Shown here piece after piece: positions 3,080 to 21,422 of a stretch of DNA of 21,422 bases. A program made the translations under genes and the position numbers. Under the pieces are notes generated by a model that was given only the letters and a program-made list of their open reading frames with translations, was not told the origin of the DNA and searched no databases. The number at the start of each line of letters is the position of its first letter. Position 1 is the first letter of the stretch. Source of the stretch: a virus; IMG/VR virus record IMGVR_UViG_3300021139_000179, positions 1 through 21,422 of that record. The stretch is one strand, 5' to 3'.

Positions 3080-3388
3080 TTAATACGTTCTTCCGCCCTT
3101 AATCCATTGACCGGTTTCGGGCATGTAATAAGAAGGTTGTGGCAATTGAAGCGACTTTCGCATTTTCATTCGCTGCTTCTCGGACGTGCCGCCCCAAATG
3201 CCAAACTTAATGTAAGAGCACAAAGCGTAGTCAAGGCATTCCTGCTTTACTTCACAGGTAGAGCAAAATTCCTTGGCTGCGACCGTCTTGTGAAACTCAT
3301 GCGATTCTGGAAAAAAGAAATCTACCGACTGCGGCTCCAACTTGCATCTTGCTCGCTCGGTCCAGTTTCCTTCTTGAGTGCTTTGCAT
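3080..3388 (-). CDS. WhiB-like transcription factor 1
   Basis: The WhiB family binds a [4Fe-4S] cluster through four cysteines and usually acts by contacting region 4 of the host primary sigma factor. Here the cysteines are C15, C42, C45 and C51 (C-x26-C-x2-C-x5-C), followed by the family turn GIWGGTSE (63-70) and a basic stretch (KQRMKMRKS). The 102-aa length is normal. Ribosome site GGAGGGG precedes ATG 3388 and an extended -10 lies at 3428-3436. It is co-transcribed with the C5 methyltransferase. Mycobacteriophage TM4 encodes a WhiB that interferes with host WhiB2, a precedent for host reprogramming. Confidence 0.93.
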   Translation of the reverse strand: MQSTQEGNWTERARCKLEPQSVDFFFPESHEFHKTVAAKEFCSTCEVKQECLDYALCSYIKFGIWGGTSEKQRMKMRKSLQLPQPSYYMPETGQWIKGGRTY

Positions 3389-6505: not shown

Positions 6506-7198
6506 TTAAACGTCAAGGATGCCAGCAGCCCAAGTTGGCTCAATGGCGGGGCCAAGTTCTTGCATGCGGGTAGCAAAGAGGCTACGAGCAAGGTCAACTT
6601 GAGCCTCAGTAAGACGCAGTTCGCCGCTAAGGATGATTGCCATAAACGCTGCGCCAATTAACTGAGCCTGACGCTCTTCTAGTTCGACAACGCGCTTTTG
6701 CAAATCATGCTTCAGCATAAACTCCAACGCAGACTGAAAACGCTCCCAGCCTCGCTCTAAGACTTCAATGAGGGCACGAGTGTGCTCTACACCAGCCTTG
6801 TCTGTGGTTTCAAGAACATCGTTAAGTTCGTCCAGTTTTTGCTCAAGCATAATTGACCATTGCTTCATCTTTGAGGCAAGAATCCATGCTTCAACTTCTG
6901 GCGGTCCAATGGGAGGAGCCTCCCCAAGTCGTTCGGAGAGGCTGGTCAGTTCTTTTTGCAATTTAGTCCTTACGGCTGTTTTGGCATGATTGGCGGAGTT
7001 GCCCAAATGCCATTTACAAGTTCCTTCGCCAAAATGATTTGTTCCCATTCCAGCAGTTTTGTTGCAGTAGCGAACAATGCCTAGTTCTCGCAAACGCTTG
7101 TCTCTAAGTTTTGCTCCGCACTTGCCCGGCAATGATTCTGGAACACCGGGCAATTTGTCATCGGGATAGTTTTCTGCCCAAACGTCTTCGTCGCTCAT
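6506..7198 (-). CDS. 230-aa zinc/coiled-coil protein, small-terminase-like
   Basis: The N-terminal motif KCGAKL...RYCNKTAGMGTNH...GTCKWH has potential metal ligands C27, C45, C61 and H64; the CxAKLR...C..AG.GT.H.G.G.CK.H string is typical of phage small-terminase-like proteins. Helical segments follow (about 85-180), then a hydrophobic helix (QLIGAAFMAIIL). ATG 7198 is chosen because it overlaps the WhiB-2 stop (ATGA); no Shine-Dalgarno is evident. A large terminase subunit is not in the window, so the packaging role is tentative. Alternative: a zinc-site DNA-binding protein of other use. Confidence 0.8.
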   Translation of the reverse strand: MSDEDVWAENYPDDKLPGVPESLPGKCGAKLRDKRLRELGIVRYCNKTAGMGTNHFGEGTCKWHLGNSANHAKTAVRTKLQKELTSLSERLGEAPPIGPPEVEAWILASKMKQWSIMLEQKLDELNDVLETTDKAGVEHTRALIEVLERGWERFQSALEFMLKHDLQKRVVELEERQAQLIGAAFMAIILSGELRLTEAQVDLARSLFATRMQELGPAIEPTWAAGILDV

Positions 7199-7629
7199 GC
7201 CTTGTTCGCTTTCTTTGCTTTGCGGTATTCGTTCACCTTGTTTCGGTGGGCAGTCAGACAATCCTTGCAGGGCGTAACGCCTCGCTTGCGCTCTTGCTGA
7301 TAGCCGCCCGGAGTGCCGTGAATAATGTTGGGCAGAGGTTTGTTTTGAGCCTTTTGGCTTACAGCACTTTCCTGCTTAATGTGAGTAATTTTCATTGAGC
7401 GATTGCGACGCTCTGCCTCTCGCTGGTTTTCGGTCATGCCGCCCCAGTAGCCGTATGGTTCGTATTGCAACGCGTAGTTGCGGCAGGCATCTACAACAGG
7501 GCAAGACGCACAAGTTTGGACAACCTCTGCCGATGGAATTTCCGCAAAAAAATCTAAGCGGCGGTTGGTTCTTGCACAAGCGGCAAGTTCTTTCCAGCCT
7601 AAATCAACTACTACTTCGTCAACTACCAT
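7195..7629 (-). CDS. WhiB-like transcription factor 2 with C-terminal HGT...CxxC extension
   Basis: Cluster cysteines are C18, C40, C43 and C49, followed by GYWGGMTE (60-67) and a basic segment. Residues 104-129 add a second motif, HGTPGGYQQ...RGVTPCKDC...HR, whose His/Cys spacing suggests a separate zinc site, and a Lys-rich tail. Most WhiB proteins end soon after the WGG turn, so at 144 aa this is a two-module protein. ATG 7629 is preferred because AGGAGG lies 9 nt upstream; a TTG at 7638 would place the ribosome site against the start. It overlaps the Rpf-like gene by 7 nt. Confidence 0.9.
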   Translation of the reverse strand: MVVDEVVVDLGWKELAACARTNRRLDFFAEIPSAEVVQTCASCPVVDACRNYALQYEPYGYWGGMTENQREAERRNRSMKITHIKQESAVSQKAQNKPLPNIIHGTPGGYQQERKRGVTPCKDCLTAHRNKVNEYRKAKKANKA

Positions 7630-7994
7630 GAATGACAACCTCCTTGGTCAGGAACAGCGTAGCCTCTGTTGATGCGCTTTGCAACTGCAATTTGTTGAAT
7701 AGGGGTAGCGTCGGCGGCGTTAGCAGGGAAGCCCATGCCCCGACTGTAGTAGGCCCAGTTGTGGTTGGTAATGCCAAGGCCACCAGAATACAGGGAGCCT
7801 CTGACGTGCCAATTGCCGCCCTCTTCGCAAACTGCAACCTTGCTCCATGCCCGAACATCGGCGGCGGTTACGCCCCAAGGCCAACCGTGCGGTGGTCTGT
7901 GGCGGTTAGTAGAAGCCTGTGCGCTATTGCTTGCGGCAATGGACAACAGGGTAGCAAAAATGACAATAACAAGGTGAAAACGGTTTTTCCGCAT
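7623..7994 (-). CDS. Secreted Rpf-like transglycosylase/lysozyme-fold enzyme
   Basis: Residues 1-28 are a signal peptide: basic start (MRKNR), hydrophobic core (LVIVIFATLLSIAAS) and AQA-S cleavage motif. The mature part matches the resuscitation-promoting-factor fold: WSKVAVCEEGGNW with the catalytic Glu after the first Cys, SGGLGITNHNW, then QQIAVAKRI and a final Cys (GGCHSW) for the conserved disulfide. Rpf enzymes cleave peptidoglycan glycan strands outside the cell. At 123 aa it is little more than the catalytic domain. GAAAGAAAG precedes ATG 7994. It may act in lysis, in wall remodelling during infection or in waking dormant hosts. Family call is strong; role is inferred. Confidence 0.88.
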   Translation of the reverse strand: MRKNRFHLVIVIFATLLSIAASNSAQASTNRHRPPHGWPWGVTAADVRAWSKVAVCEEGGNWHVRGSLYSGGLGITNHNWAYYSRGMGFPANAADATPIQQIAVAKRINRGYAVPDQGGCHSW

Positions 7995-8213: not shown

Positions 8214-8699
8214 TCAAACATTTATAACTTTAGCAGGCATGGTCACGTATGGGGACCACTTTGCAGCAGTTGCTACTGCGCCCTTAAGCGTTTTGAGTTC
8301 GATGTTTGACTGACCGGCGAGATAACCGATTGCATAGGCTCCGCCTGCCCCAACTGCCATAAATGGCGATTGGACGGTGACGGTTGAAAATCCGTTTGTT
8401 TGGAGAATGACAATGGGTTGCCCCGGCGAGACAAAGAGGACTTCCGAATCCGACCAATCTTCTTCATTTTTTACGCCTTTCAACATTTCAATAACTAACT
8501 GTGGGGTGACGTTTTCGTTTTTGACTTCGTTCAGCATGTTAATAATGCGCCACGAGCCAACTGCCCCCACAATTCCACCGCCAGCGTGCTTGACAGCCTT
8601 GGCAGTAGAGGAAGCAAAGATAATGCTTTCCCCAACCGCCGCAGAATCGTGAGCCATCAGGCAACCGTTTTTATGCGTGTATGCAACTAAAACACTCAT
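8214..8699 (-). CDS. Proteasome-beta/HslV-like Ntn hydrolase
   Basis: Ntn peptidases use the N-terminal residue exposed after Met removal as nucleophile. The protein starts MSVLVAYTHKNGCLMAHDSA; with the Ser as residue 1, Asp falls at 17, Lys at 33 (SSTAKAV) and Gly at 47 (GAVGSW), matching proteasome and HslV T1/D17/K33/G47. The later AVGAGGAYAIGYLAG resembles the family's IGSGGNYA helix. The nucleophile is Ser rather than Thr, and at 161 aa it is close to HslV in size. ATG 8699 overlaps the HNH gene stop (ATGA). A longer in-frame start would hide the Ser. No unfoldase partner is visible. Target unknown. Confidence 0.78.
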   Translation of the reverse strand: MSVLVAYTHKNGCLMAHDSAAVGESIIFASSTAKAVKHAGGGIVGAVGSWRIINMLNEVKNENVTPQLVIEMLKGVKNEEDWSDSEVLFVSPGQPIVILQTNGFSTVTVQSPFMAVGAGGAYAIGYLAGQSNIELKTLKGAVATAAKWSPYVTMPAKVINV

Positions 8700-9373
8700 T
8701 TTTGTAATCTTTCTTGTGTTGTAACACGATGGCAGTTGGCACAAATAACGTCGCATTTTTCAATTTCTTCAATTAATGCTTTTAGTGCGACTTTACCCAT
8801 GCCAGCACTAATGGCAAATTTCTTTTCTCCACGAACATGGTCAAACTCCATAGATTGCCATGCAAATTTTCTTTTGCATTTGATGCAAGGAACTGATTTT
8901 GCTTCTTGAACAAGTTGATACATTTTTTCGATGCCCGGTCTTTTTGTTTGTCTTGGTTTTCTTCTTGAAATAGTTCTTAGGACATGACAATTGGCGCACA
9001 CTAATTCGCATTTATTAATCTCTTCTAAAACATTTTCAAGATTGTACCTTCCCCAAACCGCCTCAGAAACGTTAAACTTTTTTTCTCCACGAACATGGTC
9101 AAAATCCATTGCAACTGGTGGAAAAGTTTCACCGCAATCCGAACAAGGCGCATTTTTTAAAGGTAAAATAATTTTAGAGTATTCTTCCTTTAACTTGCTT
9201 CTTCGTGCCGTATCGGATAATTTTTGTTTTTCTAAGTATGTTGCTTGATACCACAACTTCTTTTTGGCTTTTTGTTCTTCTTTATGCTCCTCGTAATATT
9301 TTTTGTTTTTTGCTCTAATTAATTCTTTGTTGGCAAGGTAATACTGTCTTGCTCTTTCTGCTTTGGTAACCAT
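8696..9373 (-). CDS. Tandem HNH endonuclease-like protein
   Basis: Two copies of the same HNH zinc-nuclease module in one chain. Module 1 has CSDC (77-80), FDHVRGEKKF (91-100) and CANCH (126-130). Module 2 has CIKC (163-166), FDHVRGEKKF (177-186) and CANCH (211-215). The first 70 residues are a Lys/Tyr-rich basic helix, probably DNA binding. Such modules cut DNA using the DH and terminal His residues. The gene is visibly richer in A and T than its neighbours and has its own promoter, with the -10 box only 6 nt before ATG 9373, which fits a mobile acquisition. It may be a homing-type nuclease. Confidence 0.88.
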   Translation of the reverse strand: MVTKAERARQYYLANKELIRAKNKKYYEEHKEEQKAKKKLWYQATYLEKQKLSDTARRSKLKEEYSKIILPLKNAPCSDCGETFPPVAMDFDHVRGEKKFNVSEAVWGRYNLENVLEEINKCELVCANCHVLRTISRRKPRQTKRPGIEKMYQLVQEAKSVPCIKCKRKFAWQSMEFDHVRGEKKFAISAGMGKVALKALIEEIEKCDVICANCHRVTTQERLQK

Positions 9374-9410: not shown

Positions 9411-10628
9411 TTAATAACTAGGAATCCCAGAGTCCCATACGCCATCAAAAAGCCAAGTCTTATCCCTAACAATGCGGTCTGGCCAGTTCACGCCCTGAAG
9501 TCTATCGCCACGGAACCTTTTAACATGAAGCGTTGTCGGGTCATTAACGTCTTTGTAGAGGGAAATCCCGGCCTCGGGCCACGCCATCCACCGTTGCGAA
9601 CCCATCGGTGCGAGGTCTCGCTTCTCCCCCTGCTTACCCTTGGCCGCGTGGTGCTCCATGATAAGGGCAAACCCATACTTGGTACGGAGGTCATCAAGAA
9701 CAGCCATCGCTTCGTCTGCGGAATCTTCGTAGGATTCGCCAGAGCCACGACGATACATTTTGTAGATAGGTCCGATGCAAACAAGGTCGGGACGGTGGTA
9801 GGCAATTTCTCGCTGCAACTCCGCCTTGTCCGACAGGCTGCGAATTTCGATGCCACCGGGCCTGCGCCAAAAGCGAATACGCTCGTCATCGTAAACATCG
9901 GGAGCGCGGTCATACAACACCTTGGCATAGGGAACAGCAGTCTGCAAGATTGCCTGCGTAGGGTTCTCAAGGTCAATGACCAAAGCACGAATAGGCTTAA
10001 TGCGTTGGTGACTAAAGGGGTGAAAACCCTGAGCAGCAGACATGGCAATCGTACGCAGCAGCAGCGACTTACCAGTTCCTTCTTCTGCCACAACAATCGT
10101 TCGGTACTCTTGGTGGAGCATGCCCGGAATGACCACCGGAGACAATTCCTCGGCGTTCATGGCGAGTTCGCCAAGGGTCACCGATTCGGGACCGTCTGAC
10201 CCCAACATACCAATCGTGGAAACAAACTTCTCCACACCGTCAGCCTCGTTGTATGGGTCTTGTCCTGCGTAGAGCGAATCAACGCCCTCCAACAAGCGGT
10301 GCATCAACCGACGAGAGGTTCCGTGCTTCGCCACAATTTCGGCGTAGATGCGAGCGTTCGTGTATGACGGAGTTTCCATCATCATGTCCATCAACGCTGG
10401 CATCACTTCGCTGTTGTTCATGTTGGAAGCAACAACAAGCGAATCAACATCAACGCCGTTGTTGACCAGTTGGCAAATCGTGCCGTAAATCTCTCCGTGC
10501 AGAGGACTGTAGAAATCTTCAGCCTTGCACACCTCCATCGCTGCGATGGCTGCACCGGAGTTCAGGAGCATGGCTCCAATCAAACTGCGTTCTGCCTGTA
10601 AGTCGTGAGGGGGGATTTGCTTACTCAC
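9411..10628 (-). CDS. Replicative DNA helicase (DnaB N-terminal domain plus RepA/AAA_25-type ATPase)
   Basis: Unwinds DNA at the phage fork. Residues 1-110 match the DnaB N-terminal domain (PPHDLQAERSLIGAMLL ... DFYSPLHGEIY). The ATPase part starts near 150, with Walker A AEEGTGKS (181-188), Walker B-like ALVIDLEN, and GPIYKMYR and IMEHHAAKG later. This resembles RepA/AAA_25 helicases rather than full DnaB. The 405-aa length is typical of actinophage versions. The GTG start at 10628 is preceded by AGGAAAGGAAACA. It is third in the operon after the SNF2 and loader-like genes, 11 nt downstream of the latter. Confidence 0.88.
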   Translation of the reverse strand: MSKQIPPHDLQAERSLIGAMLLNSGAAIAAMEVCKAEDFYSPLHGEIYGTICQLVNNGVDVDSLVVASNMNNSEVMPALMDMMMETPSYTNARIYAEIVAKHGTSRRLMHRLLEGVDSLYAGQDPYNEADGVEKFVSTIGMLGSDGPESVTLGELAMNAEELSPVVIPGMLHQEYRTIVVAEEGTGKSLLLRTIAMSAAQGFHPFSHQRIKPIRALVIDLENPTQAILQTAVPYAKVLYDRAPDVYDDERIRFWRRPGGIEIRSLSDKAELQREIAYHRPDLVCIGPIYKMYRRGSGESYEDSADEAMAVLDDLRTKYGFALIMEHHAAKGKQGEKRDLAPMGSQRWMAWPEAGISLYKDVNDPTTLHVKRFRGDRLQGVNWPDRIVRDKTWLFDGVWDSGIPSY

Positions 10629-18133: not shown

Positions 18134-18282
18134 CTAAGCACAGCGTTGAGATGGTTTTTGAGCGCAATGCGTATCAAGTGACTTGCAATTGCGGATGGCG
18201 CTACAAAGCAACTGATAGAAACATTGGAATGGCAAATGGTCACATTCACATTGCTTCTCAAGCCGTTGCCGCCAATGAGTGA
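18121..18282 (+). CDS. 53-aa small zinc-motif peptide
   Basis: MGKVTKHSVEMVFERNAYQV precedes TCNCGWRYKA (C22, C24) and GHIHIAS (H41, H43), spaced as a possible zinc site. An ATG two codons earlier (18115) is an alternative; 18121 is preferred because GGAAATGG lies just before it. It overlaps the HNH gene by 13 nt and WhiB-3 by 8 nt (ATGAGTGA). Similar short CxCGWR...HxxxA peptides occur in actinophages. Function is unknown. Confidence 0.68.
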   Translation: MGKVTKHSVEMVFERNAYQVTCNCGWRYKATDRNIGMANGHIHIASQAVAANE

Positions 18283-18592
18283 GTATAGCGATTTTTTTGT
18301 TGAGGAATTTTGGCGCTCGTTAAATGCTTTGCGCCCTGCGTTCCACCAAAAAGCGCTTTGCAAGACAATGGACAATAACTTGTTTTTCCCCGGTCAAGGG
18401 CAATCAGGCAAGGCACAGCAGGCCGTTGAAATTTGTTTTCAATGCCCTGTTCAGATTGAATGCCACGATTACGCTTGCAAAGAAAAGATTGAGCACGGCG
18501 TTTGGGGCGGTTCAACCGCAGACCAACGCAAACAATGGTTTAAGCAAGGGCTGACGCCTAGCGCCGCTTGGGAAGAATTAGCCCCCGAATAA
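18275..18592 (+). CDS. WhiB-like transcription factor 3
   Basis: Cysteines C29, C54, C57 and C63 (C-x24-C-x2-C-x5-C) and HGVWGGSTADQRK (74-86) define the family; the basic tail (RKQWFKQG) follows. ATG 18275 is chosen because it lies at the end of the zinc-peptide gene (8-nt overlap) and gives a normal 105-aa protein; a start at 18224 would add a hydrophobic stretch not seen in WhiB. No Shine-Dalgarno is visible, so translation is probably coupled. It is the last gene of the recombination operon, and its 3' end overlaps the convergent 79-aa gene by 15 nt. Confidence 0.9.
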   Translation: MSEYSDFFVEEFWRSLNALRPAFHQKALCKTMDNNLFFPGQGQSGKAQQAVEICFQCPVQIECHDYACKEKIEHGVWGGSTADQRKQWFKQGLTPSAAWEELAPE

Positions 18593-20847: not shown

Positions 20848-21422
20848 TTACCACGCAATCACAATAATAACGCCGTTGCCACCGGTGCCACCGGTGCCAG
20901 ATGTATAACTAGCGGTTGTTCCGGCATACGCTCCGCCACCTCCACCACCAGAACCAAGGCCACCGTTTCCACCAGTAGAACCGCTAAACGTTCCACCACC
21001 AGAACCCCAGCCACCACCACCTCCGGTGCTGATAATTCCGTTTGCTCCAATTGAGCCAGTTCCGTTTGAGCCGCCCGAAGCAACGCCGGTTCCTCCAGCG
21101 GGCGCTGTCATGTTGGGTTGAACAAGGGGGGTGCCTCCTGCCCCACCAGCATTGTTGTTTGAACCTCCACCTCCGCCGCTGGAAGTGTAAACTCCCCCGG
21201 ACCCAGCATAACCAACTCCGTTAGTGTTGCCTCCCGAAGATGCTCCGCCTGCAAACATACTGTTTGTATTAGTGCTGGCTATACCGCCGACATTGCCCAA
21301 AGCACCGCCCGGTGCCCAAAGGTAACTTGCAGCGGCAGTCGAAGCAGACGAACCGTAAGTGCCAGCAGCGAGGCTACGGGTAGCCATGGCTGAGGGGGCG
21401 AAGGAGATACTGGATTCCTTGC
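20848..21422 (-). CDS. Glycine-rich tail-fibre-type protein (5' end beyond right edge)
   Basis: The frame is open from the right edge to the stop at 20848. Most of it is Gly/Ser/Ala/Thr/Asn with GGGGG runs, ending GGTGGNGVIIVIAW, the usual closing strand of phage tail glycine-rich domains. An in-frame ATG at 21387 would give 179 aa, but it has no ribosome site and the frame continues upstream with ISFAPSAMATRSLAAGTY, which reads like ordinary tail-protein sequence. I therefore treat it as the C-terminal part of a longer protein. It is likely an adhesion or tail-tip component. Confidence 0.83.
   Translation of the reverse strand, partial: KESSISFAPSAMATRSLAAGTYGSSASTAAASYLWAPGGALGNVGGIASTNTNSMFAGGASSGGNTNGVGYAGSGGVYTSSGGGGGSNNNAGGAGGTPLVQPNMTAPAGGTGVASGGSNGTGSIGANGIISTGGGGGWGSGGGTFSGSTGGNGGLGSGGGGGGAYAGTTASYTSGTGGTGGNGVIIVIAW

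Follow-up and report, generated by a model that had tools for sequence, protein, structure and literature searches.

The gene at positions 8214 to 8699 on the minus strand of the viral DNA analysed here (21,422 nucleotides in full, referred to as the window) encodes a divergent phage proteasome homologue, new to an otherwise known kind. Profile searches and the predicted structure support its assignment to the proteasome/HslV-like Ntn-hydrolase superfamily. We consider it probable, at roughly 60%, that the product is a cytosolic Ntn peptidase of this superfamily that works without an ATP-driven unfoldase of its own. The computed support consists of homology and fold, a conserved catalytic triad, a signal of purifying selection and the overlap between genes; catalytic activity, ATP independence, an oligomeric state, substrates and a biological role are what we infer.

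The peptidase gene and its N-terminal motif

The gene and the codons at its active-site positions, all on the minus strand, are as follows.

8214..8699, minus strand: Ntn peptidase gene, proteasome/HslV-like; intact ORF of 161 amino acids (MSVLVAYT...), identified by PHROG 1040, AlphaFold2 and dN/dS
8694..8696, minus strand: Ser1 codon, predicted nucleophile once Met is removed (alignment: Thr in 108/115 and Ser in 7/115 relatives)
8646..8648, minus strand: Asp17 codon (Asp in 115/115 relatives)
8598..8600, minus strand: Lys33 codon (Lys in 113/113 relatives having a residue there)
8556..8558, minus strand: Gly47 codon, oxyanion-hole position (Gly in 99/112 relatives having a residue there)
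8346..8348, minus strand: Ala codon at the proteasome Ser129 position (GAG, not GSG; alignment)
8253..8255, minus strand: Ser codon at the proteasome Asp166 position (alignment)
8244..8246, minus strand: Val codon at the proteasome Ser169 position (alignment)

Counting the Ser after Met as residue 1, the spacing of Ser1, Asp17, Lys33 and Gly47 is identical to that of HslV and proteasome beta subunits. A first-pass annotation of this DNA had singled out this exact spacing and the presence of Ser in place of Thr1, and the intact minus-strand frame, in which Ser follows the initial Met, bears out both. The corresponding pattern, M[ST]-x15-D-x15-K-x13-G, matches 10 of the 30,363 candidate ORF starts in all loci compared, namely nine copies of the window gene or its close relative and one actinobacterial proteasome-like protein. 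Support for the start at 8699 comes from a 69%-identical relative (L001, L002) that opens at the same Met and from an overlap with the stop codon of the upstream gene, by a 4-base ATGA in the window and by TGATG in L001. A longer start at 8756 was ruled out, its extension not being conserved. Comparison with L001 reveals purifying selection on the gene (dN 0.21, dS 1.09, dN/dS about 0.2), and the subfamily is known from just these two distinct sequences.

Superfamily membership and predicted fold

The PHROG 1040 profile ('peptidase HslV family') matches the window protein with an E-value of 1.6e-10 and its close relative with 2.8e-11; the same profile also matches control genomes, bacterial and archaeal, in which HslV or a proteasome is known to occur. 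When the window pair was left out, a profile of 12 phage proteins recovered the window protein at 3.4e-5 and one from a larger set at 1.3e-10, with no shuffled sequence reported. On the strength of these leave-out profiles and of the rarity of the motif among the candidate starts, we rejected a chance resemblance. Searches of Pfam, NCBIfam and PADLOC with the peptidase returned no significant match, tblastn with the window protein against phages and plasmids gave no match even at high E, and no close relative turned up in GTDB contigs or in 201 genomes from a freshwater order of actinobacteria.

Using 40 aligned viral sequences, AlphaFold2 generated a model with a pLDDT of 94.9 and a pTM of 0.90. 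The two close sequences alone gave no usable model (pLDDT 32.7), and it is therefore the wider family that supports the fold. In a Foldseek search against the PDB, the best solved matches are HslV (1m4y, 3e-9), the beta-proteobacterial proteasome homologue BPH (PDB 5OVS/5OVT; 5ovs, 4e-9) and 20S beta subunits, with E-values of 3e-9 to 8e-8 and TM-scores of about 0.7-0.78; more than 1000 PDB entries match at E <= 0.001, and the model displays the four-layer Ntn fold. The viral matches include proteins annotated as HslV, proteasome or proteasome beta, and a sequence-level search of the PDB with a profile of the same 40 sequences recovers proteasome beta, HslV and BPH. The Ntn/HslV-like identity proposed at first pass is upheld by this comparison: the fold is predicted to be proteasome-like, where a non-Ntn fold would have spoken against that identity, and Ser/Thr1, Asp and Lys, whose loss among homologues would have done the same, are conserved.

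The model places helices at residues 50-58 and 66-74, so that a short second helix is predicted, and a short helix 3 at residues 120-128. In HslV, helix 3 forms part of the inter-ring contact. Ring assembly of the window protein is uncertain because this helix is short in the model.

Active site, gene context and alternative readings

The predicted product carries no propeptide, and Ser1 would become the N-terminus once the host's methionine aminopeptidase had taken off Met1. Asp17 would then hold Lys33, which would deprotonate the Ser1 hydroxyl, and peptide bonds would be cleaved with the Gly47 amide serving as the oxyanion hole. The peptidase, translated together with phage replication genes and probably an oligomer, would during infection attack peptides, unfolded proteins or particular target proteins, most likely with no unfoldase of its own, a mode of action also suggested for BPH and further proteasome homologues.

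Among 103 distinct homologues collected with a DNA pattern for the N-terminus, 97 have Thr and 6 have Ser as residue 1; this residue is always Thr or Ser, and Asp and Lys are invariant, in more than 100 phage relatives. Asp lies at residue 13 in 53 of 68 classic phage homologues of the PPH type, with a hairpin four residues shorter, while the window protein and Microbacterium phage proteins keep the residue-17 spacing. At the positions of Ser129, Asp166 and Ser169 the window pair has Ala, Ser and Val (S129A, D166S, S169V). By alignment, then, the pair keeps the first triad and is devoid of the second active-site set, the residues by which the N-terminal amine is tuned. That this loss is unique to the window protein was an idea we dropped when a search unbiased at these positions found other phage homologues with it. 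Across 109 phage homologues, Ser129 and Asp166 are both missing in 22, which still keep Thr1/Asp/Lys, and only one of them is missing in 8; the two losses go hand in hand (Fisher P 2.6e-15, with no correction for relatedness).

Studies of the yeast proteasome indicate that the Thr1 amine has its charge set by Ser129 and Asp166 and that a T1S proteasome is 40-45% less active, leaving 55-60% of the activity; in true proteasomes, neither autolysis nor catalysis proceeds with D166A, and D166N severely reduces activity (PMC4792962). By analogy with the Ser1 mutant, a Ser1 nucleophile would be compatible with activity, which we count in favour of a working peptidase. We count against it the replaced Ser129/Asp166/Ser169 set, which by analogy with the D166 mutants may impair the enzyme, the short modelled helix 3 with its bearing on ring assembly, and a subfamily of two sequences whose close pair alone could not be modelled. 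The joint loss of Ser129 and Asp166 with fixed Thr/Ser1, Asp17 and Lys33 is consistent with the proposal that the proteasome active site has two parts. A bolder idea, which we hold unlikely, is that this subfamily and some other phage homologues are proteasome-fold enzymes that use the Ser/Thr-Lys-Asp triad only and dispense with Ser129/Asp166/Ser169 for a different chemistry. If true, the difference from the studied proteasome relatives could lie, for instance, in ligation, in making just one specific cut or in a shifted pH optimum.

Two observations concern other homologues in the alignment. Viral proteasome homologues of 176-180 amino acids form a tight group (L146, L151, L153, L155, L157, L197, L199, L201, L211, L216, L221) with D17 spacing, no Asp166 and fixed neighbours, including a glycine/proline-rich protein just downstream. 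In Citromicrobium phage RXM, the deposited start of g89 ('proteasome subunit beta', L007:7756-8226) lies too far downstream; the open frame starts MTTIAFRAG, which gives Thr1.

The best-surviving alternative, to which we give about one chance in five, is a narrow-specificity, connectase-like Ntn amidase or transpeptidase, a monomer or small oligomer processing one phage or host protein. It would accommodate the lost second active-site set and the short helix 3 of the model, and novel quaternary structures are expected in such homologues according to a 2021 survey (PMC8665760). The first 20 residues also weakly resemble the connectase N-terminal domain, at a Pfam E of 0.11 that may be chance. 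However, the model lacks the two-helix insertion that connectase has between strands 3 and 4, and the best structural matches are HslV and BPH, connectase being absent from the 50 best Foldseek matches listed.

Somewhat less likely still is a catalytically dead or weak homologue acting by binding, for instance by joining a ring of host HslV or proteasome subunits or by capping it. The missing equivalents of Ser129, Asp166 and Ser169 fit such a protein, but the triad does not vary across the family, the window pair included, the gene is under purifying selection, and the triad persists in the 22 phage homologues that have lost Ser129 and Asp166. A host proteasome would also be scarce: of 61 genomes sampled from one freshwater order of actinobacteria, a plausible host order that may not be the host's, 2 carry a PF00227 proteasome gene. 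The same scarcity argues weakly against a Pup-proteasome target, with the same reservation about the order, and we found no support for the earlier suggestion that the protein interferes with or borrows the host Pup-proteasome.

The preferred reading, an active peptidase without its own unfoldase, also draws on the gene neighbourhood, whose relevant members are listed here.

8696..9373, minus strand: HNH endonuclease gene between helicase and peptidase (PHROG 3106, E 1.6e-51); its stop overlaps the peptidase start (ATGA)
9411..10628, minus strand: DnaB-like replicative helicase gene (PF00772 1.2e-18, PF13481 7.3e-19); L001 orthologue about 86% identical
7623..7994, minus strand: transglycosylase-like gene (PF06737, Pfam 5.5e-12), downstream; same order in L001; apparent signal peptide (by eye)

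The stop/start overlap with replication genes and the synteny extend over two phages. In L001 the peptidase directly follows and overlaps the DnaB-like helicase orthologue, with no HNH gene at that place, and the order SNF2-type helicase, replication initiator, DnaB-like helicase, peptidase, transglycosylase, WhiB and terminase-like gene is conserved. The HNH endonuclease of the window (8696-9373) has two similar zinc-knuckle-like halves and looks like a free-standing homing-type insertion. In agreement with the first-pass annotation, which saw no ATPase partner nearby, profile annotation of the window, which is a fragment, recognised helicases and RecA and no HslU- or ClpX-type unfoldase, and hence no operon with HslU as expected of HslV.

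Among the relatives, neighbourhoods vary widely, with a DnaB-type helicase within 3.5 kb in 5 of 83 loci, the window pair included. A search for a conserved partner gene beside them gave no recurrent family except within one contig group, the five helicase loci being too few. In Salmonella phage Ent2 (L023) an HslV-family gene stands just upstream of two holins and an endolysin, and in phAPEC8 and Shewanella phage 1/40 (L015, L025) one lies near a lysozyme and a PhoH gene.

The window RecA is closest to Actinomycetota (58-60%), and RecA and the WhiB-like genes point to a host that is probably actinobacterial. Three WhiB-like regulator genes are found in the 21-kb fragment (3080-3388, 7195-7638 and 18224-18592), which ends in a pentapeptide-repeat ORF on the left (1-552) and a glycine-rich collagen-like ORF on the right (20848-21420).

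An anti-defence or host-takeover protease, directed against a host factor and grouped with the replication genes for early expression, is improbable: the gene does overlap the replication operon, but there is no PADLOC match and no defence-linked context, and the neighbourhoods of the relatives vary. A defence role suggested at first pass likewise gained no support, nor did a role in the virion.

Comparison with known proteasome-like systems

Fuchs, Alva and Lupas described 22 novel proteasome homologues in 2021, including PPH and AAH; PPH occurs in phages and their hosts, has about 140 residues and lacks helix H2, and no AAA+ partner was found to co-occur with the novel homologues, which are expected to adopt novel quaternary structures (PMC8665760). 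Phage proteasome homologues (PPH, AAH) have thus been known since 2021 and are present in over 300 sequenced phages: tblastn from the E. coli phage member phAPEC8_0094 returned 313 phage records. These include Microbacterium phages, LeeroyJenkins gp16 among them, so that actinophage members were on record before the window protein. A phage-encoded Ntn peptidase, as first proposed, is therefore correct as to identity and not unusual, such homologues being described and widespread (PMC8665760; 313 phage records). In the literature found, no function has been assigned to any phage proteasome homologue, despite the hundreds of sequenced phages carrying one. The window peptidase is a convenient test case, being small, propeptide-free and serine-using, with a start that overlaps replication genes.

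In a phylogenetic tree, the window protein lies on a long branch inside the phage group, apart from HslV and PrcB (split support 95/90). With PPH and PHROG 1040 it shares phage encoding, compact size, the absence of a propeptide and of an AAA+ partner, the Ntn triad and the same profile. It differs from PPH in having Ser1 instead of Thr (Ser in 6/103 sampled PPH-like proteins), Asp at 17 rather than 13, a longer chain (about 160 residues against 140), a short second helix, and GAG with no Asp166. At 161 residues, and with the helices modelled at 50-58 and 66-74, it falls outside the strict PPH definition (about 140 residues, no H2).

HslV has the same fold (TM up to 0.77) and exactly the same S/T1-D17-K33-G47 spacing, whereas identity in fold alignments is 12-19% and the window protein differs by its Ser nucleophile, GAG in place of GSG and the absence of HslU nearby. 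BPH, which has an acidic pore loop, shares the fold (TM 0.78) at 15-16% identity, and neither protein is tied to a dedicated unfoldase. Actinobacterial PrcB, the 20S beta subunit, belongs to the same superfamily with the same triad spacing, whereas the window protein is much shorter, has neither propeptide nor alpha partner and is separate in the tree; at the second active-site set that marks a proper 20S beta subunit (Ser129/Asp166/Ser169) it has Ala, Ser and Val. Among actinophage-encoded, proteasome-like proteins, that of Gordonia phage Daredevil is recognised by fold, and LeeroyJenkins gp16 ('protease') has the D17 spacing of the window protein; gp16, at about 27% identity, differs in retaining Thr1, GSG and D-x-x-T-G-G and in its gene neighbourhood. 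Taken together, what distinguishes the window protein at the residue level is its Ser nucleophile, the full Ser1-Asp17 spacing and the loss of the second active-site set, the last of which it has in common with some phage homologues.
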